A stretch of DNA of 20,045 nucleotides from a virus. The translations under genes and the position numbers were made by a program. The stretch is from IMG/VR virus record IMGVR_UViG_3300032238_000242, positions 1 to 20,045 of that record. One strand, given 5' to 3'. How positions within the stretch are numbered: the first letter of the stretch is position 1; each line of letters begins with the position of its first letter. Positions 4,254 through 20,045 of this stretch are shown piece after piece. Below the pieces are notes generated by a model, which saw only the letters and a program-made list of their open reading frames with translations, made no database searches and was not told where the DNA came from.

Positions 4254-4702
4254 ACTACAATATCTTCCATTCCGGCTGTGCGTAGTCTAACCACGTGTCC
4301 CAACATAAAGTTCTTTGATTCAATGCCTTTCATAACACCCAGCCAGCGATTGCGTAGTAATGCCACTTCGTTGATGATTGTTTCCATGTCAACAACTTCA
4401 TCCTCGGCTTCAGCATATTTTTCAGCATCTCTTGATGTCAGTGCTCTAGCATAGGCTTCTAGGTACTTTTTATAATGTCGTTGTCTAATTTTGCGTAGTT
4501 GTATGTTAAGAAACTCTAGCACAGCTTCAATTTCTTGCAGTTGATTAAAACGGTGCTCAGTCATGCCCGGCAAGTCCGACAGCTCTTTTTCTACACGGCC
4601 ACGTATTTTAATTTCTGTTTTGGCTGACGTCATTTCGCCTTCATAGTATTCAATGAATTCAGGAATAACGCTTAGGTCTGCTACAATTCGATTATAAAAC
4701 AT
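4250..4702 (-). CDS. uvsY: Probable UvsY-like recombination mediator
   Basis: This 150-aa protein is rich in helices and charge. UvsY of T4 (137 aa, hexameric) loads UvsX onto gp32-covered single strands. The C-terminal part here, with a W-x-x-x-M-x-x-I-x-S-x-x-F pattern (NRWLGVMKGIESKNFML) and then a short tail, resembles the UvsY C-terminus where a tryptophan-containing helix leads to IKSRGFAIKH. The YKKYLEAYARAL block at about 78-89 corresponds to the K/R-rich helix and Y-x-x-x-A segment of marine UvsY proteins. The start is the ATG at 4702 with CGGAG 6 nt before it; a TTG lies directly upstream. gp32 and uvsX in the same gene chain support the call, but the similarity is weak by eye. The alternative is an unrelated helical phage protein. 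Confidence 0.5.
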   Translation of the reverse strand: MFYNRIVADLSVIPEFIEYYEGEMTSAKTEIKIRGRVEKELSDLPGMTEHRFNQLQEIEAVLEFLNIQLRKIRQRHYKKYLEAYARALTSRDAEKYAEAEDEVVDMETIINEVALLRNRWLGVMKGIESKNFMLGHVVRLRTAGMEDIVV

Positions 4703-5939
4703 CAAGTACTCCGGTTAGCCAAGGAAAAGTTTCACGCCAGTTGGTGTTGCGTCTACGATCAAGCTCATCAAGATAAGTACGCAACTTGTTGATTTCGGTA
4801 GGATTTTTTTTGGTACTGGCAATCTGTTGTCTAACACCTTGCATGTACTTACGTGCTTCTTGTTGTTGCCAAGTGTCCACAGGCATAGCTTCCAGCACCT
4901 GTGCAAAGTACGGCTCCAGTAAGTCAGCATCAAAAATGTCTGGGTTCATGTAGGTTGGTGTATTTGCGATTATCAAATGATGCCCTATTTCTCTATGTGG
5001 TCTAAATGTATTCACGTAATTGATCAATGCTGGCATGGTAGGCACGGCCAGAGCTGTGACCACTTGGTTTATGTTTAAAGTTATCCAACGTTGGTTGACC
5101 AAATATTCAAAATTTTCTTTCCATTTTGTTAAATCTAAACCCGATCTAATGTACTCTTGTTCCGGCCCCCAGCAATCTATACTGGCAGTTACTTCAAAAC
5201 GTTTGATCTTGCGTTCAGCAACCAAATGTTTGATGCGTTCTACGTGATCTCGTAAACGCCCATTATCAATCATCAGATTGCTTACCACATTAAATTCCAA
5301 ATCTTTGTTACTATGATTATACAGGAAATCCAAGCAGGTGTCAAATTGTGCTTGATAAAAAGGTTCTCCGCCCAGCACATGAAATCTACGCACACTGGAA
5401 TAGTTGGCATCTAGCCAGGACCATAATTGTTCAGTCAGCCGGGCTTTTTCTGGATGTGGCTGATATTGGTTGTCTATTACTACTCCCGAAGATTCAAATC
5501 TACCGTGTTGATCATTTTCATGTTTGATGCGACTGCTAAAACCATCGTGGCAATATATACATCGTAGGTTGCAGGTATTGTCAAAATACACTTCTACAAT
5601 TCTGGGGGTTACCATAACTGCTTCAGGGTCCGCATCTAACTCAGGTGGTGTTAGATCTGGTATTGCTAGGTGTAGCATACGATCGCTCGATCCACCAGCA
5701 CGTTCTATTTTTTCACAGTAGTCACAGCCACCCGTGGGCCAGGCACCAGACAGCATGGTCTGACGGTCTTGCAATTTTTTAGCAGTATTGTGAAAAAGTT
5801 CAAATGCATCCACTGACAGTGGGCTTTTTTCTACTCTATGGCAACTGTTGGTGGTTCCTTCGTACAGGTAGATACTGCTCCAGGTCCATTTAAGTTGGCA
5901 TGCTGTAGCTGTTTGTATTGGAAAATACTTGTGCTTCAT
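4692..5939 (-). CDS. Radical SAM protein with N-terminal cysteine module (rSAM 1)
   Basis: At 415 aa this is the longest of the four radical SAM proteins here. The SAM-binding [4Fe-4S] motif is CNLRCIYC (C123, C127, C130), followed by HVLGGEP (GGEP at 190-193), the usual SAM-contact motif. Before the radical SAM domain is a separate cysteine set: C14, C33, and C72-x-x-C75 followed by an E. The other three radical SAM proteins have the same set. In known SPASM/twitch enzymes such cysteines bind an auxiliary Fe-S cluster, but there they are C-terminal. The start overlaps the 77-aa gene stop (TAATG), and the end overlaps the uvsY-like start by 11 nt. The reaction and substrate are unknown. Confidence 0.9.
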   Translation of the reverse strand: MKHKYFPIQTATACQLKWTWSSIYLYEGTTNSCHRVEKSPLSVDAFELFHNTAKKLQDRQTMLSGAWPTGGCDYCEKIERAGGSSDRMLHLAIPDLTPPELDADPEAVMVTPRIVEVYFDNTCNLRCIYCHDGFSSRIKHENDQHGRFESSGVVIDNQYQPHPEKARLTEQLWSWLDANYSSVRRFHVLGGEPFYQAQFDTCLDFLYNHSNKDLEFNVVSNLMIDNGRLRDHVERIKHLVAERKIKRFEVTASIDCWGPEQEYIRSGLDLTKWKENFEYLVNQRWITLNINQVVTALAVPTMPALINYVNTFRPHREIGHHLIIANTPTYMNPDIFDADLLEPYFAQVLEAMPVDTWQQQEARKYMQGVRQQIASTKKNPTEINKLRTYLDELDRRRNTNWRETFPWLTGVLDVL

Positions 5940-6172
5940 TACCAGTCGGAATCGTCACCTTCGTCATCATCTTGTTCGTCATCGTCGGTGTATTCTTTGA
6001 GAGCACGTTTTAATGTGTTATCGGTTCCGCCAAACTCTTTGAGTTCTTGGTCTCCCAACATGTCTACCATGACACTCATAAGATTGTCGGCACACTCTTG
6101 ACGATCCTTTGCAGGAACATACTGTTTCATAATTGTGTATAGTTCGCTTATAACTTCTGCATCAATGGTCAT
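5939..6172 (-). CDS. Small protein with highly acidic tail (77 aa)
   Basis: The function is not recognised. The first 60 residues look like a compact helical domain (ISELYTIMKQYVPAKDRQE, then GGTDNTLKRAL). The last 17 residues are nearly all Asp/Glu and end in W. Such tails are common on phage DNA mimics and on proteins that bind single-strand-binding proteins or polymerase. It lies between two radical SAM genes, overlapping the upstream one by 4 nt (ATGA) and the downstream one by 1 nt, with a good Shine-Dalgarno AGAGGAAAAA. It could be a replication or transcription accessory protein, or, speculatively, a substrate or partner of the neighbouring radical SAM enzymes. Confidence 0.8.
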   Translation of the reverse strand: MTIDAEVISELYTIMKQYVPAKDRQECADNLMSVMVDMLGDQELKEFGGTDNTLKRALKEYTDDDEQDDDEGDDSDW

Positions 6173-7305
6173 ACTTTTTCCTCTTTGTTAATCCAACTTA
6201 TAAAATTTTCCGGGAATATCGACAACGATAAATTTCTACGTTGTGCAAACTCCAGTAGGTACTTCTTTAATTGTGCTTGTTGCGTATCTGTACTTGCAAT
6301 GTTTAATGTTTGCTTAATTATTTGATCATGGTATTTATATTGTGTTTGCATCAATTGTGTTTTAGTTTCAGTATCTAACACACTAGCACTCAAATACTCA
6401 GGATCGTTACAAGGATTGAGTAAATCTCTATCGGTACTGTACTCCTGCTGAAACTTGTCAAATCCATGCACAGTTAAATTGCTTAATACACTACAAAATC
6501 TATATTCAAAGCGACTGGCAATTATGTCTAGGTTACGTCTAAATTGATCCCATGTGTTACCATAACGATTAAATTCATATAGTATATCTGTGTTTTCTGC
6601 ACTTACTGTAAATGTTGTACTGGTTGGCAATTGATCTAATATACGTTGTAGTCTTTCTGTTTTAACTCCCAATCCAGTAAATATGTCAACTGGTGCAGAT
6701 AATTTACCAACTAGCTCAGCTAGTCCATTATACAAAAATGGCTCGCCACCGGTTATTTCAATTTGGGTGGCTGTTTTTAACTTGGCAACTTCTTGAATAA
6801 TAGTTTGATAACTATCACTTTGTTTAATAACAGGTTGTCCTAGTTTTAATACAATACGATCGTTGGCTGTAATTTGATATCTTGTTTCATCAGTATAAGC
6901 ACCATGTTGTTCAATATCACGCAACCAAGCAGTACTGTACTGTTTACAACAATAACTACAAGTTAGATTACAGTCGCTACCAACATTGATATGTAGTACA
7001 CGAGGACTTGAATACACATCTGTGTGTGTTCTGGTACCAGACTCCATTATGGTTCTACGACTTGGTAATCCGCGACGCTCAGCGGACCAGCAGGTATCTT
7101 CGCAACTGTCCACAGGCTCATTGTTTAACATACTGGTACGTTCTGCCAGTAGTTCTGGTGTGTTGAACAACTGTCCCGGATTGCGTTTAAGCCAGGACAA
7201 ATCAATTTTAGTGGCTGTAGCAGCACAGCACGAATTCATAGTTCGTCGTTCAGGCTCTACAGTCAACCACCAAAATTTTTGCGAGCAATAATTACTCTGC
7301 GACAT
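6169..7305 (-). CDS. Radical SAM protein with N-terminal cysteine module (rSAM 2)
   Basis: This is 378 aa from the ATG at 7305; an in-frame TTG lies directly upstream, but the ATG with AGAGG just before it is preferred. The radical SAM cluster motif is CNLTCSYC (C112, C116, C119), followed by ITGGEP (GGEP at 186-189). The N-terminal cysteine set is C7, C26 and C68-x-x-x-C72, matching the other three except for one extra residue in the CxxC. A second cysteine (C27) stands next to C26, and another (C120) next to the cluster motif. The start lies inside the last codons of uvsX, so expression is coupled to the recombinase. The substrate is unknown. Confidence 0.9.
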   Translation of the reverse strand: MSQSNYCSQKFWWLTVEPERRTMNSCCAATATKIDLSWLKRNPGQLFNTPELLAERTSMLNNEPVDSCEDTCWSAERRGLPSRRTIMESGTRTHTDVYSSPRVLHINVGSDCNLTCSYCCKQYSTAWLRDIEQHGAYTDETRYQITANDRIVLKLGQPVIKQSDSYQTIIQEVAKLKTATQIEITGGEPFLYNGLAELVGKLSAPVDIFTGLGVKTERLQRILDQLPTSTTFTVSAENTDILYEFNRYGNTWDQFRRNLDIIASRFEYRFCSVLSNLTVHGFDKFQQEYSTDRDLLNPCNDPEYLSASVLDTETKTQLMQTQYKYHDQIIKQTLNIASTDTQQAQLKKYLLEFAQRRNLSLSIFPENFISWINKEEKV

Positions 7306-8413
7306 CAACCTCTTTTTTAGACTTCTTTGGCTTGTCTTCGATTACTGCTTCGACTTCGGCTTCTAGTTCTTCAATGTCCACTGACTTCTGGTGTGGGTTG
7401 GCAACAAAGTCTACCATGGCTTTGTCCAAGCATGAATCTTCGTTGCGTTCCCATGCCTTGCGGAACTTCTTGATGATTTCACCTGTGGCCAATGTGTAGA
7501 CTAAACTATTACCTTCTTTTTTAAGCAGGTCTTTGCCTTCAAACAAGTCAACTAAACCAGAATAAGGGTTCATGCCTTCTTCGTATGGAATCTTAACTTG
7601 CACCGATTCAAATGGCTTGGCGTAACGTGTTTTCATAATCTTACAGGCGGCACGGATACCTTTTACTTCTGAAATCTTGTTGCCATCCTCATCTTCTTTT
7701 AGTTTTAACTTACGCATAGCTACAACGATACTACTCGCATAGATAAAACCTTGTCCTCCTGATATTTTGTCGTCTGGATCAAACATATCTTGACTAGCGT
7801 ATGTGTGTGCGGTGGTTACTAGGCCAATATTTAAGCTACCAAACATGTTTACGCAATTACGTACCAGGGCGGCTAGTGCTTTGGGCTTACGACCCATGTC
7901 ACCTTTCATGTCCCCTGCTTCGAATTGATTTACATCCGTTGGAGTAAGTAGCATACCCAACGAATCTACTACGAACAAGACTTTGGGTCTTTCTAACTCT
8001 GGTAATGTTTTGTATTCTTTAACAAACTCCGAGATCATCTTGCCCACATCGTCAATCATGGCCATGTTGAGTTTGAGTAGTTTATCTTCACTGGTGTCTA
8101 CGTTGAGTGCGTGTAACCACTTTTCGTCAAGTGCGTTTTCACTGTCAACTAGAATAACATAGATGCCTTGCTTTTGTGCGTTAGCAACCAAGTTACCCGA
8201 ACAGATGAATGATTTACCTGCGCCGGACTCTCCGGCAAACACAGTAACTTTGCCCAGTGGAACACCTTTGTTAAAGTCTCCTGAGATTAGATAGTTGAGA
8301 GCGTAGTTGTTGGTTGATATCCAGTCTGTAGGATCTGTAAAACCCACGCTGATGCCGTCAATGCTCTTGGTGATACTTTTGCGAAATTTTGATACGTCAA
8401 ATGGTTTAGCCAT
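7292..8413 (-). CDS. uvsX: UvsX-type RecA-family recombinase
   Basis: At 373 aa it is close to T4 UvsX (391 aa). It forms filaments on single-stranded DNA, carries out strand invasion and starts recombination-dependent replication. The Walker A motif is GESGAGKS (61-68), the catalytic acidic segment is LVDSEN (88-93), and Walker B is VLFVVD (145-150). The DNA-binding loop region follows (MKGDMGRKPKAL). The C-terminus is charged, with an acidic stretch then KKSKKE. AAGGAAA provides the ribosome binding site, inside the end of the upstream radical SAM gene, which it overlaps by 8 nt. The gene lies between two radical SAM genes, whereas in typical T4-like phages it lies among replication genes. 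Confidence 0.95.
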   Translation of the reverse strand: MAKPFDVSKFRKSITKSIDGISVGFTDPTDWISTNNYALNYLISGDFNKGVPLGKVTVFAGESGAGKSFICSGNLVANAQKQGIYVILVDSENALDEKWLHALNVDTSEDKLLKLNMAMIDDVGKMISEFVKEYKTLPELERPKVLFVVDSLGMLLTPTDVNQFEAGDMKGDMGRKPKALAALVRNCVNMFGSLNIGLVTTAHTYASQDMFDPDDKISGGQGFIYASSIVVAMRKLKLKEDEDGNKISEVKGIRAACKIMKTRYAKPFESVQVKIPYEEGMNPYSGLVDLFEGKDLLKKEGNSLVYTLATGEIIKKFRKAWERNEDSCLDKAMVDFVANPHQKSVDIEELEAEVEAVIEDKPKKSKKEVDVAE

Positions 8414-9560
8414 GATAGTTTTCCTTGATGTTATATAAATCTTTAAATATTTTACTGCTGTCTACTTTACGTCTTTGATCCAATGTATGTATCTCATTCA
8501 TTGAACCTAAAAAATCTTTTTTGAATGGTTGCTCAATATAATGTAGCATGTTGCGGTAACTGTCTTCTAATAGGTAACCCGGAGCTTCATTGATCCTTGC
8601 TTCCAAAATACTCTTAACTGATTGTAGCACAGAGTCCGGTAAATGTCTAATATTTAGGTATTCAGGCTCAAGCAACGCACCGATCACAAATGCATTATTA
8701 TGGAATCCTTGTGCTTTTAGAAAATCTACACACCCAAATATGCTTTGGTAGTTTAATAAGAAGTGTAGCATATTAAACGTAATTTTATGATCCAGTGTTT
8801 TTATGTGCTTTAGATTGTCTTGAAAATCTTGCCACTGGCCGCCGTGTCTGATGTACTCAAACTCGTCCCCAATGGTTTCTACACTCACAGTCCAGTGTAC
8901 ATTTTTAAATTGACATATCCGTTCAAATACTTGTGTGTCCACTTTGCTTAGATTTGTGTTGATACGTAGGTTTACATTGGGATCCAGTAGATCCAATAAC
9001 TCTAAATTTTCACGCATCAACAATGGCTCACCACCGGCCAGATAAACATGTTCAAGTTGCGTGGCATGTTCAAATATATACTGTTTAAAATTGGCACGTT
9101 GTTTGTCTGTGGGACTTTGTTGCTTGATGTCTAGTTCGTCGGCCCAACGACTGCTAAACTCTGGATTACAATATACACAAGCAAAGTTACACAGGTTGGT
9201 CCAGCGTACATCGATGGTTTTTAGATTGAAGTTTCCGGCACGGTATGTATCCAAGCTGACATTTTTTAGTTCTCGTATGTAGAATTTACGGTCGCTGATA
9301 ATGTCAAATCCTTTTTTACCATGCTCTAAGTCATAGCATGTGCGACACGAAGGTACTGCAATATCAGATACAATTTTATTTTGTATCAGTACGTTGGTGT
9401 TGCCATGTATCACTCGTTCTATAGGAGCATCTTTGATATTTCCGATGGTGCCGGCACTACGGATACAATTTTTGATTGTGCCGTCAAAGCCGTTGTACAT
9501 AAGTCCGGTCCACGGTATAGGACAAAATGTAGAATTAGTTAAGACTTCTTTAGGCGTCAT
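8406..9560 (-). CDS. Radical SAM protein with N-terminal cysteine module (rSAM 3)
   Basis: This 384-aa protein has the cluster motif CNFACVYC (C124, C128, C131), followed by EFSSRW, and YLAGGEP (GGEP at 176-179). The N-terminal set is C13 (in FCPIPW), C32, and C72-x-x-C75 followed by a D-x-E. The spacing is almost identical to rSAM 1 (14, 33, 72, 75 and 123, 127, 130). The FCPIPW...DGTIKNC form is the one most like the twitch/SPASM-associated radical SAM proteins often annotated in marine phages, as I recall. Its start overlaps the SDR stop by 11 nt and its stop overlaps the uvsX start by 8 nt. The function is unknown; substrates of relatives range from peptides to small metabolites. Confidence 0.9.
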   Translation of the reverse strand: MTPKEVLTNSTFCPIPWTGLMYNGFDGTIKNCIRSAGTIGNIKDAPIERVIHGNTNVLIQNKIVSDIAVPSCRTCYDLEHGKKGFDIISDRKFYIRELKNVSLDTYRAGNFNLKTIDVRWTNLCNFACVYCNPEFSSRWADELDIKQQSPTDKQRANFKQYIFEHATQLEHVYLAGGEPLLMRENLELLDLLDPNVNLRINTNLSKVDTQVFERICQFKNVHWTVSVETIGDEFEYIRHGGQWQDFQDNLKHIKTLDHKITFNMLHFLLNYQSIFGCVDFLKAQGFHNNAFVIGALLEPEYLNIRHLPDSVLQSVKSILEARINEAPGYLLEDSYRNMLHYIEQPFKKDFLGSMNEIHTLDQRRKVDSSKIFKDLYNIKENYHG

Positions 9561-15440: not shown

Positions 15441-15461
15441 ATAACTTGTTTAATAAGTTAT
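15441..15461. repeat. Short perfect inverted repeat between genes
   Basis: ATAACTT and AAGTTAT form a perfect 7-bp inverted repeat around a 7-nt AT-rich spacer, overlapping the stop codon of the 489-aa gene and ending 5 nt before the next start. It is too AT-rich for a strong terminator and lacks a U run. It could be a protein-binding site or an RNA-processing site. Chance is possible in AT-rich DNA. Confidence 0.4.
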
Positions 15462-16927
15462 TTACGAATTCCTGCCAGACTACGAATAAAATCTAGGTCG
15501 GTGTTTTCCATGGTCATGTTACTGATGTTTGGATGGTCGGGTTGTGATCCGTATTGATCTTGAGGATCAGCTTGACTTGGACTTACTGGTAGTGTTTGAG
15601 ATGTTTGTGTGTCGTCTGCGTTGTTGCGACCAAATTCAATTTGATTTAACAATGCGGGCATGTTGTCATTGATCCAAGTTTTAATCAATGGTCTGGCATC
15701 AGCATCAGGGCCTTGACTGTCTGCCAAATGATATATGGCATCGTGTAAGTCATCATCACCAATGAGTGGTTGTAATGCAGATACTGCATCAACTCCATCT
15801 ATACCAACTGGCACACTGGATTGCAACAATGCTTTTAGTGCTAGAACTTTATCTTTGTTATCGGGAGTGGCCCATGTGCCTTCTGTGACTGTGTCGGCCC
15901 ATTCTTCAAGTTCTGCACCCAATTGCTCAGCTGATTCTGATTTGTATTTTTTGTAGGCTTTAAACACAATAGGGAGTGCTTCAGTAAAACGATCATCGTA
16001 AACTTTTTTAACAAAGCGTTCACGCAAGGCATCTACGTCTACTTCATCTTCAATTATGGTGTTGTCTGCTTGCCAGTTTTCAAAGTAGCTACGATAGCCG
16101 CGAGCTCCACGCATTTGGCGTAGTGTACGTTTTAATTCATCGTAATGATGTACAGCACTACGAGTCATGTCAGCTGTTTCTGCATCTTCAAATTGACGAT
16201 GCTTGGTACTACGAACAAAATGACGCATGTCGGCCATTTCTTTTACAATACTGTTGATGTGTTCGGCTATTTCATCGTGCATGGTGCCGCCAGCATTTAA
16301 GTGCTCTGCCAAGGCATAGGCACCATGTAGGTTTGTATGATTTAGTAAGAAGCGTTCGCCGCGGTCAGTTTCTAAAAAGATTTCTTGTATGCGTCGTGCC
16401 CGGGCACCATGAATGTCGTCGTTTACTTTGTCTTTGTGACGAATTAAAATTTTAGTGTTGCCTTTGTCAGCAAAGCTGTTATAAGGGCGGCCTGGTGTGC
16501 CGTATAGTCGACTTTCTGTTACTGTAACATCGTTGCTTGAGAATGTATCGTCTGCTTTGCTTTGTTGTTTAACGTCTTTAAGGTCTAGATTTGATTTGTT
16601 GATATCACGTGTGTCAAATGTCAACAAGTTACGCTTGGCAAACTTGCGTAAGCCACGTAAAAATTCATACCATTCTTTGCGTTGTTCTCTATCCATTTCG
16701 CCTGAAATGTTTTGGCCAAAATATACTTTTAATGTGTTTTCATCAATGAGACTGATTGTCACTGTGCCAAATTCTGCACCATCTTCGCCGGTGTATGTAA
16801 AGTTAAAAAAACGAGCCTTAGAGGGGTCTGACGATGCCTTGGCTTTTTCATCGCCCAGCGTTACATTGCTGAAGCGGGAGCGAATTTTGTCAAATAGTGC
16901 AGAGGAGATTGATTCAATTTCTTTCAT
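15458..16927 (-). CDS. Phage protein of unknown function (489 aa), probably late
   Basis: The function is not recognised. The N-terminal 110 residues look like a mixed alpha/beta domain (FFNFTYTG, GTVTISLIDENTLKVYF, then WYEFLRGLRKFAKRNLLTFD). The middle is helical and charged, with many His and Arg (ADMRHFVRSTKHRQFED). The C-terminal 60 residues are low-complexity (Q, S, P, D) and end in DLDFIRSLAGIRK. A very similar motif (IKRLAGI) lies in the 131-aa protein at 19039-19434. The gene follows the terminase, with GATAAATA 5 nt before its ATG and no Shine-Dalgarno sequence, so it is probably late and possibly structural. I recall similar proteins in other marine T4-like phages, also without a function. 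Confidence 0.8.
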   Translation of the reverse strand: MKEIESISSALFDKIRSRFSNVTLGDEKAKASSDPSKARFFNFTYTGEDGAEFGTVTISLIDENTLKVYFGQNISGEMDREQRKEWYEFLRGLRKFAKRNLLTFDTRDINKSNLDLKDVKQQSKADDTFSSNDVTVTESRLYGTPGRPYNSFADKGNTKILIRHKDKVNDDIHGARARRIQEIFLETDRGERFLLNHTNLHGAYALAEHLNAGGTMHDEIAEHINSIVKEMADMRHFVRSTKHRQFEDAETADMTRSAVHHYDELKRTLRQMRGARGYRSYFENWQADNTIIEDEVDVDALRERFVKKVYDDRFTEALPIVFKAYKKYKSESAEQLGAELEEWADTVTEGTWATPDNKDKVLALKALLQSSVPVGIDGVDAVSALQPLIGDDDLHDAIYHLADSQGPDADARPLIKTWINDNMPALLNQIEFGRNNADDTQTSQTLPVSPSQADPQDQYGSQPDHPNISNMTMENTDLDFIRSLAGIRK

Positions 16928-16932
16928 AGTTA

Positions 16933-16940
16933 TATTTATC
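16933..16940 (-). promoter_or_regulatory. Late-promoter-like GATAAATA box
   Basis: GATAAATA on the minus strand ends 5 nt before the ATG at 16927 and begins inside the terminase stop codon. There is no Shine-Dalgarno sequence. It is identical to the box before the gene at 2509. Confidence 0.5.
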
Positions 16941-18501
16941 AGATCATTATAAACGGCATGGGTTCTATAAACTCACCTGCATCTTTGATTTCAGCATCCA
17001 AGTTAGCATCATAGTTTTGTAAGGTTTGCATCATGCGTAAGGCCAGTAAGGTTGACATAACTAAGTCGTCGGTTTCGCCTATTTTGGCTGCAAAACTATT
17101 GCCATGTGCCACAAATGTTTTGAGTTCTGTTATTAGAGCCTTGCTGGCTACGATCATGCGACGAGTTTCTATTAGACTTTTGAGTTTGCTACAAGCAGTT
17201 AATTTTGATTTGTTTGTAGTGTTAAATCCTTTGCGGAATCTGCGTACATTGCCGGCTCGGGCTACTTCACTTAGGAATACTCCACGTATGTTTTCTTCTC
17301 CAATTTCCTCAATCGCAACCAGTGCGGCTTCTCCCAGTGTGTTATTTTCTACGCTGTAATAAACATTGTTTGGAGATCCACTGGCGTCAGAAATATATTG
17401 ACAAATTTCTTGCAAGATACGTACCTGACGTTGTATGGGTGTTTTGTTATCGCGCCACTCGGCCACTTGTTTAAGTCCAGGCATTTCAAATACTTGTAAG
17501 GCAGCCGGGTCGCCTCCAGTGCCTAGACTAGGGTCCAATGCTACAAAGTAAGTATGGTCACGCTCAGGACGTTTGTACCAGCGTACCTGTCCTTGTCGTT
17601 CAAATGGATCAATACCTGACATTTCGGCCAGATGTAACGGATTAATCAGCGTCTCATCAAAGATAATAAATTCACATTCCATCTCGCGACGAAAACGTTC
17701 TTCACCCAGTTGTGCTCGCATGTTTGCAGCCCAAGCTTCATCACGCTCAGGATGTTCTTCCCATTTACTACGGAATGCTTTGAACCCGTTGACACCCACT
17801 TCAGTTTCATTGCCATTGATGTCTATACACTTGTTGGCTCCTCGCCAAATTTGTGCAAATTGATCTTCGTCTGAGTTTGGTGTTGAAGTAATAATACACT
17901 TACCGCCAGTGGCTAGGGTGGGAGTAATGGAGGTCCAAAAGTCTGTGGCTATGGTGGGTCGCACGAATGCAAACTCGTCACAGTACAATAAGGATATACT
18001 CATACCACGACCGGTGTTTTCTGTTGTGGTTTGACTTACTATGCGGCTACCATTTTCAAAGTCCAACGATCCTTTATTATAACTTGTTACACCTGCTCTA
18101 ATATGATCTGGACAGTTCTCATACGCATAACGAACACGTTGCATGATCTCTTGAGCACCTAGATACTTGTGTGCGGCCACAAGGATAGTTGAGTCTGGTA
18201 CAAACATGGCATACCATAGCAAGTAGCCGGCGGCTGTGGTCGATTTGCCCGTTTGTCTTGGCATTAGGCTTATAGAGAATCTATAATGATGATAAGATTC
18301 AATCAATCGTTCTTGGTATTCGAAAGGATGATATTGTATGGCGCCGCGGGTGGGGTGCTGTATAAAGAAATAGTTCTTCATAAAGTAATCTGGGCCTGAC
18401 ACAGGATCAGCACAGCGGGCCAACTCTAAGATTTGTTGCTCAGTGTAAGACATCCGTTTGTACGGCGCCTTGATAATTGCAGTCTCTAACTCTTTACTCA
18501 T
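16939..18501 (-). CDS. 17: Terminase large subunit (gp17-type packaging ATPase/nuclease)
   Basis: This is 520 aa from the ATG at 18501. The frame extends to 18537, but that form would overlap the divergent HNH gene and cover the promoter-like box. The N-terminal ATPase has the Q-like HPFEYQERLI (58-67), Walker A MPRQTGKST (80-88), Walker B LLYCDE (171-176) with catalytic E176, and the coupling motif ITSTPN (204-209). The RNase H-like nuclease domain has D323 in ALDPSLG, E385 in SVENN and D478/D479 in GETDDL. The length is somewhat below T4 gp17 (610 aa). It translocates DNA into the prohead and cuts concatemers. No small terminase gene is visible here. Confidence 0.96.
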   Translation of the reverse strand: MSKELETAIIKAPYKRMSYTEQQILELARCADPVSGPDYFMKNYFFIQHPTRGAIQYHPFEYQERLIESYHHYRFSISLMPRQTGKSTTAAGYLLWYAMFVPDSTILVAAHKYLGAQEIMQRVRYAYENCPDHIRAGVTSYNKGSLDFENGSRIVSQTTTENTGRGMSISLLYCDEFAFVRPTIATDFWTSITPTLATGGKCIITSTPNSDEDQFAQIWRGANKCIDINGNETEVGVNGFKAFRSKWEEHPERDEAWAANMRAQLGEERFRREMECEFIIFDETLINPLHLAEMSGIDPFERQGQVRWYKRPERDHTYFVALDPSLGTGGDPAALQVFEMPGLKQVAEWRDNKTPIQRQVRILQEICQYISDASGSPNNVYYSVENNTLGEAALVAIEEIGEENIRGVFLSEVARAGNVRRFRKGFNTTNKSKLTACSKLKSLIETRRMIVASKALITELKTFVAHGNSFAAKIGETDDLVMSTLLALRMMQTLQNYDANLDAEIKDAGEFIEPMPFIMI

Positions 18502-18516
18502 ATAAGTATATTTAAT
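18501..18516. promoter_or_regulatory. Two divergent late-promoter-like boxes in a 13-bp gap
   Basis: Between the terminase ATG (minus, 18499-18501) and the HNH ATG (plus, 18515-18517) there are only 13 bp. The minus strand has ATTAAATA (18509-18516) 7 nt before the terminase ATG. The plus strand has TATAAGTA (18501-18508) 6 nt before the HNH ATG. Each is close to the T4 late consensus TATAAATA. Neither gene has a Shine-Dalgarno sequence. Confidence 0.45.
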
Positions 18517-19042
18517 GTCAGATACATTGTTACTCAATCAAAATTACCAACCAATTAGTGTGCTACCCCTGAGTGTTATCAATTGGCAACACGCAATCAA
18601 ACTCATGTACCTGGGTCGTGTTCATGTGCTGGAAACCTACCCAAATTGGATAGTACACTCGGAACGCCTAGCTCTAAATGTGCCCAGTGTCTGTGTGACC
18701 AAGGACTACTTTCACTACAAACAAGCTGTCAAATTCAGCAGATACAATCTTTACATGCGAGATCTATTTAAGTGTCAATACTGTGATGATGTGTTTGACT
18801 ATGAAGATTTAACTATCGATCATGTCAAACCCCGTAGCCTAGGTGGCAAGACTGTGTGGGAAAATTGTGTTACCAGTTGTAAAACTTGCAATCATGCCAA
18901 AGGTAGCCATTTGCTGTTGCCCAAAGTAAAGCCTTATCGTCCTGACTACTACAGTCTTGTCAACCAATGGCGTAAAATGCCATTTACTGTTAAACAGACG
19001 TCTTGGAATCAATACCTAGGATTAGACAAGCAAGTTGCTTAG
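18515..19042 (+). CDS. HNH endonuclease
   Basis: This 175-aa protein is the only plus-strand gene in the window. The HNH domain spans about 85-130: C87-x-x-C90 and C122-x-x-C125 bind a structural zinc, and the catalytic core has D102-H103 (TIDHVKPRS), W115-E116-N117 and N126-x-x-K129-G130. The N-terminal 80 residues (LLLNQNYQPISVLPLSVIN) are typical of phage and bacterial HNH proteins of this size. HNH proteins next to terminases help packaging cleavage in some phages (for example HK97-like), and others are homing nucleases; both are possible here. The last four bases overlap the stop of the convergent gene at 19039. Start codons of HNH and terminase face away from each other with 13 bp between. 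Confidence 0.92.
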   Translation: MSDTLLLNQNYQPISVLPLSVINWQHAIKLMYLGRVHVLETYPNWIVHSERLALNVPSVCVTKDYFHYKQAVKFSRYNLYMRDLFKCQYCDDVFDYEDLTIDHVKPRSLGGKTVWENCVTSCKTCNHAKGSHLLLPKVKPYRPDYYSLVNQWRKMPFTVKQTSWNQYLGLDKQVA

Positions 19043-19434
19043 TTGTTGTTGGGGAAACTGCGAGGACGATATTCAGGATGTTTGATCAAGTATTCTTCTA
19101 CCTTGTCACGCAAACTGCCTGTCATATAAGGCAAACTGAAATTGATCAGGAACCATAGATCAGTTCCAGGCATGACATGATATTCTTTCAATAGGTCGTT
19201 GCGTTCTTTGGCAGTATAACTGATATTGCTACCCACTGGACTTTGTATGCCTGTTTCAGCGGCTTGTGGTACTGTGTTGTGTCCTGTATACACGCCAGCT
19301 TCGGCTTCCAACAAGCCGGTTATTCCAGCCAGGCGTTTGATTTCTGCCAAGTCCGTAGCATCCATAACTGCATCAGCATCACCTGACTCGCCGGGTAGCA
19401 CAAAGTCTGCTTGTGTTATACGATACTGTTTCAT
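19039..19434 (-). CDS. Small phage protein of unknown function (131 aa) with LAGI motif
   Basis: The function is not recognised. Near residues 29-38 it carries DLAEIKRLAGI, almost the same as the C-terminal end of the 489-aa protein (DLDFIRSLAGI). The middle is low in complexity, and the C-terminal half (DLLKEYHVMPGTDLWFLINF, then a charged helix KVEEYLIKHPEYRP) is probably helical. The start overlaps the upstream gene stop as ATGA. It may belong to the virion or head-assembly group together with its two upstream neighbours; this is inference from context. Confidence 0.75.
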   Translation of the reverse strand: MKQYRITQADFVLPGESGDADAVMDATDLAEIKRLAGITGLLEAEAGVYTGHNTVPQAAETGIQSPVGSNISYTAKERNDLLKEYHVMPGTDLWFLINFSLPYMTGSLRDKVEEYLIKHPEYRPRSFPNNN

Positions 19435-19778
19435 TTTAATTTACGGATAGGTCCACGTGCTAACACAGGACTTTGATTGTTAACAACATCTAATTCTGTT
19501 GATTCTTTACCGGTGTTGTTTCTACTGGTATAGCCCATGTTTTTAGCGGCGCCTTGGATTATTTCACGCTCGGCATCTGTGTAGGCTACAGTCACTAACT
19601 CTGGGCCAGTTGGGCCCTCGGTATCACTATCAACTCGTGGTTGTGCTGCCATGCTCAGGCCAAATCTATAAGCGGCATAAGGATTGTTATTGGTTTCGGG
19701 CCAGCTGGATAAATCAGGAATTGCATTTACCGCAGATTTACGAAATTTACTTTCTTGAACAATCTCAACAATTTTCAT
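19431..19778 (-). CDS. Small phage protein, paralogue 2 of a tandem pair (115 aa)
   Basis: The function is not recognised. The protein begins MKIVEIVQES, a short peptide of the type seen at the N-termini of head-targeted T4-like proteins. It then has NNNPYAAYRFGLSMAAQP, a GPTGPE segment, a helical block (YTDAEREIIQGAAKNMGY) and the ending SPVLARGPIRKLK. The neighbouring protein at 19775 has the same order of elements: NNNAYAAYRYGVALAGAP, GPIGG, SKADNDKIKAAQNYLGI, SPVKSCGPIRKPK. The two are therefore tandem paralogues. Start and stop overlap the neighbours as ATGA on both sides. Confidence 0.8.
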   Translation of the reverse strand: MKIVEIVQESKFRKSAVNAIPDLSSWPETNNNPYAAYRFGLSMAAQPRVDSDTEGPTGPELVTVAYTDAEREIIQGAAKNMGYTSRNNTGKESTELDVVNNQSPVLARGPIRKLK

Positions 19779-20045
19779 TTTGGTTTACGTATAGGACCAC
19801 AAGACTTGACAGGGCTCTTGATGTTGATCAAGTCTGTTTCAAATGATCCATCTCCAGTTTCATTGTTGGGTGTTATGCCCAGATAATTTTGTGCGGCCTT
19901 GATTTTGTCATTATCGGCTTTGCTATAACCAATAGTGGTAAATCTTCCACCAATGGGTCCATATGGTTTCATTGGCAAGTCTGGTGCACCTGCTAGTGCA
20001 ACACCATAACGATAGGCAGCATAAGCATTGTTATTGTTATCTAGC
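19775..20045 (-). CDS. Small phage protein, paralogue 1 of a tandem pair, 5' end cut by window
   Basis: The frame is open to the window edge. Reading back from 20045 it gives LDNNNNAYAAYRYGVALAGA and then continues to the stop at 19775. The N-terminus, and probably a start near 20150 by comparison with the 115-aa paralogue downstream, lies outside the window. An internal TTG at 19978 is not a likely start because the conserved YAAYR segment lies upstream of it. One cysteine (KSCGPIRK) near the end is absent from the paralogue. The function is unknown. Confidence 0.75.
   Translation of the reverse strand, partial: LDNNNNAYAAYRYGVALAGAPDLPMKPYGPIGGRFTTIGYSKADNDKIKAAQNYLGITPNNETGDGSFETDLINIKSPVKSCGPIRKPK

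Follow-up and report, generated by a model that had tools for sequence, protein, structure and literature searches.

The two adjacent genes at the right-hand end of a viral contig of 20,045 bases (the whole of IMG/VR record IMGVR_UViG_3300032238_000242, referred to here as the window) encode small proteins, A and B, that belong to a large family undescribed in the libraries searched. These proteins are probably small internal (prohead-core) head proteins of a T4-type giant phage, and the probability of this assignment was estimated at about 0.65. The evidence, which is all drawn from sequence, consists of a capsid-targeting-like N-terminus, the distribution of protease-type sites, the presence of gp21- and gp23-type genes in four of five relatives' records, and the structural neighbourhood of the genes. 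A sequence-only reading of the window had raised the possibility of an internal head protein, and these findings give it indirect support.

The gene pair in the window

The features of the window that are discussed below, together with one from a related genome, were as follows.

19775 to 20045, minus strand: copy A, the first of the two genes, with 89 visible residues and the N-terminus past the contig end
19778 to 19816, minus strand: candidate C-terminal tag of copy A, its last 13 residues, beginning with SPV and of the type seen in copy B
19431 to 19778, minus strand: copy B, the second of the two genes, complete at 115 aa and with an ATGA overlap with copy A
19752 to 19778, minus strand: residues 1-9 of copy B, capsid-targeting-like N-terminus, with Glu9 last and then Ser10
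19434 to 19472, minus strand: candidate C-terminal tag of copy B, from SPV to the end, 13 residues
19039 to 19434, minus strand: neighbour of 131 aa with LAGI motif, with an ATGA overlap with copy B
16939 to 18537, minus strand: T4-type terminase large subunit, a context gene
15458 to 16927, minus strand: homologue (489 aa) of a virion structural protein (PHROG 13484; PA5oct gp278), with the LAGI motif at its end
Genome G002, 265310 to 266428: scaffold-like protein with C-terminal [RK]xLAG[IL]

The ATGA overlap of A and B was present as originally described, and copy B overlaps the next gene (19039-19434) in the same way. Copy A was likewise confirmed to run off the window, its reading frame being open at the contig edge. 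The genes that follow A and B are, in order, the 131-residue gene, an HNH gene on the opposite strand, the T4-type terminase gene and the 489-residue gene. Elsewhere in the window, an AhpC/TSA-family peroxiredoxin gene adjoins a CMD-family (AhpD-like) gene that is open at the contig edge (3-1006), and three radical-SAM genes were noted (4692-5939, 6169-7308 and 8406-9560), one of them clearly above the Pfam cut-off and two just under it.

A and B were identical at 37 of 88 residues (42%) in a BLASTP alignment with an E value of 3e-24. The comparison was repeated with the middle of the proteins alone, the residues through YAAYR and those from SPV on being excluded, and this gave a score of 105, whereas 5000 shuffles reached 52 at most. 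As the middle outscored all 5000 shuffles, the resemblance outside the YAAYR and GPIRK segments, which had been set beforehand as the test of paralogy, is better than chance, and both results bear out the proposed tandem paralogue pair.

The further proposal that the pair is part of a longer array was not borne out. The absence of further copies, named beforehand as the other outcome that would count against the reading, was observed: the record is the whole contig and ends at position 20045, and in relatives the region upstream of A holds other genes and not a third copy. In the nearest relatives (L003, L004 and L005), copy B is 88-92% identical to that of the window and copy A has 124 aa when complete; upstream of A, L003 and L004 have genes of 167, about 600, 194, 160 and 144 residues. 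An extra reading frame, SGNH-type hydrolase-like by eye, is present in L005 between the 167-aa gene and A, and is absent there in L003 and L004. Ten whole records were searched and yielded one or two strong matches apiece, exactly two in each of the three nearest relatives, and in G008 one further weak and distant match (E 0.02). Among 162 stretches examined, some of which derive from one contig, the family was present in 142, as a single copy in 96 and as a double copy in 46. With at most two copies in any of the 142 stretches, and two in the three nearest relatives, a longer array was rejected.

Extent and history of the family

Iterated profile searches converged at 188 hits. In the first-round set the E value was 3.9e-8 for the weakest member and 0.14 for the next frame. 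A pattern scan of IMG/VR gave 214 stretches with a confirmed relative, and the best 80 of them were retained. A readable N-terminus was available for 135 distinct sequences; one of these (L159), whose C-terminal end is cut by the contig end, was kept among the 135 and in the pair-by-pair tail count, and was left out of the dereplicated end statistics. The carriers of the family are T4-type phages, several of them larger than 200 kb.

Searches with 67 members gave no match at E 0.001 or better in PHROGs (the best, at 0.002, was to an unnamed family) and only weak single hits in Pfam. Four members (window copy B, L079, L084 and L075) gave only chance-level tblastn hits among 50,697 phage records, so that no isolate or cultured phage member was found in these records, and a single NRxMM-type alignment scanned against GTDB genomes likewise gave no relative and only chance-level hits. 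The family profile had no match near the terminase genes of PA5oct, Atu_ph07, Phosso, GAP32, BF and Vibrio phage 2.275 (best E 0.6), about 0.6 kb upstream being covered in the last. Membership of a known family was rejected, as the PHROGs, Pfam, tblastn and GTDB searches were all without a relative.

Two deep clades were resolved in a tree of the family (support 100/96), a YRFG type with 53 rows and an NRxMM type with 82 rows, and window copy A, being partial, was left out. Of 40 two-copy stretches classified by a motif rule, 29 had one YRFG and one NRxMM copy; five had two YRFG copies, three had two NRxMM copies, and three had a YRFG copy and an unclassified one, which the tree placed in the NRxMM clade. 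Both copies in the window's relatives are of the YRFG type, and they group with L006 in one clade of eight rows (96/85). Since these two copies join in one group, the pair stems from a separate duplication; a short alignment and an unsettled bootstrap make finer branching uncertain. In three stretches a longer reading frame lies upstream of the member and in frame with it (L163:4941-6137, L173:6423-7727 and L182:4950-8321), and in L163 and L173 this reading frame is nucleotidyltransferase-like by eye. Small genes that by eye are Dps/ferritin-like directly adjoin family members at L176:2578-3030 and L182:8740-9183.

Genomic neighbourhood

A homologue of the structural/packaging block was recognised in 64 of 78 family-selected stretches, a count that includes small genes without an assigned role, p131 among them; none was recognised in the remaining 14. 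The terminase gene was located 145-1,814 bases downstream of the family in 49 of the 78 stretches, and the next recognised gene downstream was a homologue of the 131-aa gene in 44. In a few phages the family gene is found between neck-protein and dNMP-kinase homologues, next to the tail sheath gene. Four of the five relatives' records had matches above the Pfam cut-off both to PF03420, for a gp21-type protease, and to PF07068, for a gp23-type capsid protein; neither gene was present in the fifth record (201,732 bases). A scaffold-like gene was located between the protease and capsid genes in the three genomes that were read.

N-terminal segment and protease-type sites

In T4, a capsid-targeting segment directs a protein to the core and is removed by gp21 (PMC9026906). 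The A/B family begins with a segment whose basic, acidic and hydrophobic pattern matches the T4 type, and T4 IPII and IPIII (as given in the T4 record) begin with a similar segment that is one residue longer. Glu occupied position 9 in 125 of 135 members, a uniformity that is favoured by the choice of the start codon nearest to the profile start.

Protease-type sites were counted with a strict pattern, [LI]xE[AGSN], and with a looser one that also allows Val. The strict site was present within the first 14 residues in 65 of 135 members, against 2.4 expected, and was absent from the member bodies, for which 19.8 were expected; as the bodies are related in sequence, this zero does not amount to 135 independent observations. 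After dereplication, the N-terminal site was present in 19 of 48 sequences (0.93 expected) and the bodies had none (8.0 expected, with a minimum of two in 100 shuffles). When Val was allowed, 89 of 135 members had an N-terminal site, and the bodies had one against 34.4 expected. Counted against the pattern, 70 of 135 members, window copy B included, have no strict site in their first 14 residues, and 46 have none even when Val is allowed. Copy B has Val, and not Leu or Ile, as the third-last residue of the segment, and matches the site pattern only in its looser form. All genes of three genomes were used as a control, in which no depletion of the sites was seen (243, 225 and 223 sites against 205.5, 198.3 and 198.0 expected).

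Strict sites also cluster in the capsid propeptide and the scaffold of these phages. In each of three genomes the capsid protein had four [LI]xE[AGSN] sites up to residue 60, against about 0.3 expected; after residue 60 there were none, which with about 0.7 expected is not significant alone. The scaffold had nine, eight and seven such sites in three genomes, for 1.6-1.7 expected. The mature part of the family proteins is mostly basic, with a pI over 8 in 66% of the 135 sequences.

Among other genes, N-terminal sites were found in 11 of 20 representatives of p194 (0.58 expected), in 5 of 25 of p489 (0.61 expected) and in 1 of 4 of p167 (0.13 expected). p194 matches a PHROG virion structural protein and PA5oct gp282, and p489 matches PA5oct gp278; both PA5oct proteins are MS-flagged. 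No N-terminal sites were found in p602 (0 of 14) or p131 (0 of 13), nor in the tail tube, gp4, p160, terminase, SSB, UvsX, dNMP kinase, sheath and two other genes, with one to five dereplicated representatives each. Genome-wide, a stricter N-terminal motif was carried by six, seven and five genes in G002, G006 and G004, against 0.43, 0.5 and 0.77 expected, and the family itself accounts for two, two and one of these. Among the remaining carriers are a ParB-like gene and others without an assigned role, which counts against the internal-head reading. Separately, p602 (G002 222459-224267 and homologues) contained 51 protease-type sites against 23.7 expected in 14 representatives, and may be a core protein that is cut into pieces.

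The proteomics of PA5oct was considered as proof of the N-terminal signal and was rejected as such, the result not being significant. Among 89 MS-flagged ORFs the strict N-terminal motif was present in 2, and among 417 others also in 2 (P 0.14); a looser motif, with 4 and 17 carriers in these two groups (P 0.52), was not enriched; four of the 93 MS-flagged coding sequences were unmatched by ORF calling, and the flagged list also includes enzymes. PA5oct gp333 (L254, 82921-83142), an MS-flagged protein of 73 aa whose gene adjoins the portal gene, has a start that is almost the family consensus.

Predicted structure

A model of copy B built from 132 sequences had a pLDDT of 85.4 and a pTM of 0.56, with predicted helices at residues 14-19, 33-45 and 68-81 and with both ends extended. 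For the NRxMM clade only a poor model was obtained (pLDDT 65). Comparison of the copy B fold with the PDB gave nothing at E 0.001. In a viral library (BFVD) there was one significant match, A0A6J5KNQ7, an uncharacterized protein of an uncultured Caudovirales phage (E 2.6e-4, TM 0.54/0.52, 123 residues, 24% identity). This protein is probably a member of the A/B family; its entry gives neither function nor context.

Matched ends of the two copies

In two-copy genomes the copies tend to end alike, though they are mostly from different deep clades. For 15 dereplicated pairs, 4.8 of the last eight residues were identical, versus 1.78 with shuffled partners (0 of 20,000 shuffles), and residues 2-9 had 5.2 identities versus 3.73 (2 of 20,000). 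When the window clade was removed (11 pairs), the corresponding values were 4.73 versus 1.88 (0 of 20,000) and 4.91 versus 3.66 (43 of 20,000), and the body was less alike within genomes than between them (0.20 versus 0.26). Exceptions are the pairs of L039, L062, L125 and L127, which share zero to two of the last eight residues. A KYGV tail was found on 46 members and a GYPR tail on 27, neither of them occurring on other frames of at least 40 residues; a looser GPI tail was found on 55 members, on eight other frames, which look like chance occurrences, and on one other G004 gene. A generic SPV tail was rejected as a virion tag, as the loose pattern was not enriched in G002 (7 versus 6.6 expected). 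The strict basic SPV tail occurred four times in G002 (0.7 expected), twice in G006 (0.53 expected), both times on family members, and once in G004 (0.6 expected).

The matched N- and C-terminal ends suggest genome-specific docking tags. No description of a genome-matched C-terminal tag was found in a limited, non-exhaustive search of the literature. For the matched ends, and for this point only, gene conversion between neighbouring copies would be another explanation in place of a common docking partner, and it was judged rather unlikely. It is favoured by L083, in which nine of nine scored tail codons are identical, and by the 60 of 108 shared-residue tail codons that match, against a background of 41%. 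However, residues are shared with few codons in L160 (2 of 9), L084 (2 of 8) and L038 (3 of 9), so that most pairs need a constraint at the protein level. The overall codon match indicates that protein constraint explains most of the likeness and that some gene conversion is possible.

Proposed role of A and B

If A and B are internal head proteins, the N-terminal segment would serve to dock them on the prohead core, and the gp21-type protease would cut after Glu9. The body of 11-13 kDa that is left would stay with the DNA inside the head, and its ejection into the host is possible. A second docking sequence could then be provided by the family-specific C-terminal tag, which would have to match a phage-specific partner used by both copies, and the bodies of the two copies may do different jobs. 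Put more specifically, each phage would have one N-terminal and one C-terminal address fitting its own prohead, carried by both paralogues, with the bodies free to diverge; this version is tentative, and its chances are put at appreciably less than even. If it were true, the C-terminal tag would represent a type of head-packaging signal for which T4 offers no described counterpart, and tag swaps should redirect cargo between phages.

The position of the genes within the structural/packaging block would also be expected if A and B were structural proteins of the virion and not core cargo, that is, neck, portal-vertex or decoration proteins that are added while the head assembles or later, and whose ends serve as binding tails to neighbouring structural proteins. 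The phages in which the genes lie between the neck-protein and dNMP-kinase homologues next to the sheath fit this explanation, which by itself gives no account of protease-type sites confined to the N-terminus; moreover, the tail tube, sheath and gp4 are without N-terminal sites (three to four representatives each), and it was considered unlikely. A and B might instead act outside the virion, as late-expressed assembly helpers or regulators encoded among head genes by happenstance. That the proteins are known here from sequence, that the PA5oct motif check was not significant and that 14 of the 78 stretches are without a recognised structural/packaging homologue are all compatible with such a role, but the capsid-targeting-like N-terminus and the protease-site pattern argue against it, and it is distinctly improbable.

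On the best reading, A and B would thus work like the internal head proteins of T4 without belonging to the T4 IP families. Like A and B, T4 IPI, IPII and IPIII have a short N-terminal segment and a small, mostly basic mature part, and come from a phage with a gp21-type protease, a scaffold and a gp23-type capsid protein. Unlike the T4 proteins, whose bodies have no recognisable similarity to those of A and B (67 members, PHROGs, E 0.001), A and B have a C-terminal tag common to the paralogues and are encoded in the structural block. The nearest precedent found, by analogy of description, is that of gp53 and gp54 of the Salmonella giant phage SPN3US, which in the consulted parts of the reports are paralogous internal head (ejection) proteins with identical N-termini and 34% identity in the rest, and whose N-terminal propeptides are cut off by the prohead protease (PMC5694885, PMC10052503). 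Their propeptides, as given there, have about 125 and 137 residues, compared with about nine in A and B, and those parts of the reports make no mention of a matched C-terminal tag.

The proposed role would give a testable function to a family that is carried by many uncultured large phages and is absent from the libraries searched. Matched ends on diverged paralogues might also offer a sequence-only route to a phage's own head-loading signals, and such signals could reveal other unknown proteins that the head carries and that reach the host along with the DNA.

A motif shared by neighbouring genes

A further motif, [RK]xLAG[IL], was observed in the 131-aa neighbour of the pair and at the C-termini of the 489-aa protein and of the scaffold-like protein. 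It may be a scaffold-docking motif. Genome-wide, it was present in four, one and two genes of G002, G006 and G004, respectively, against about 0.5 expected in each.
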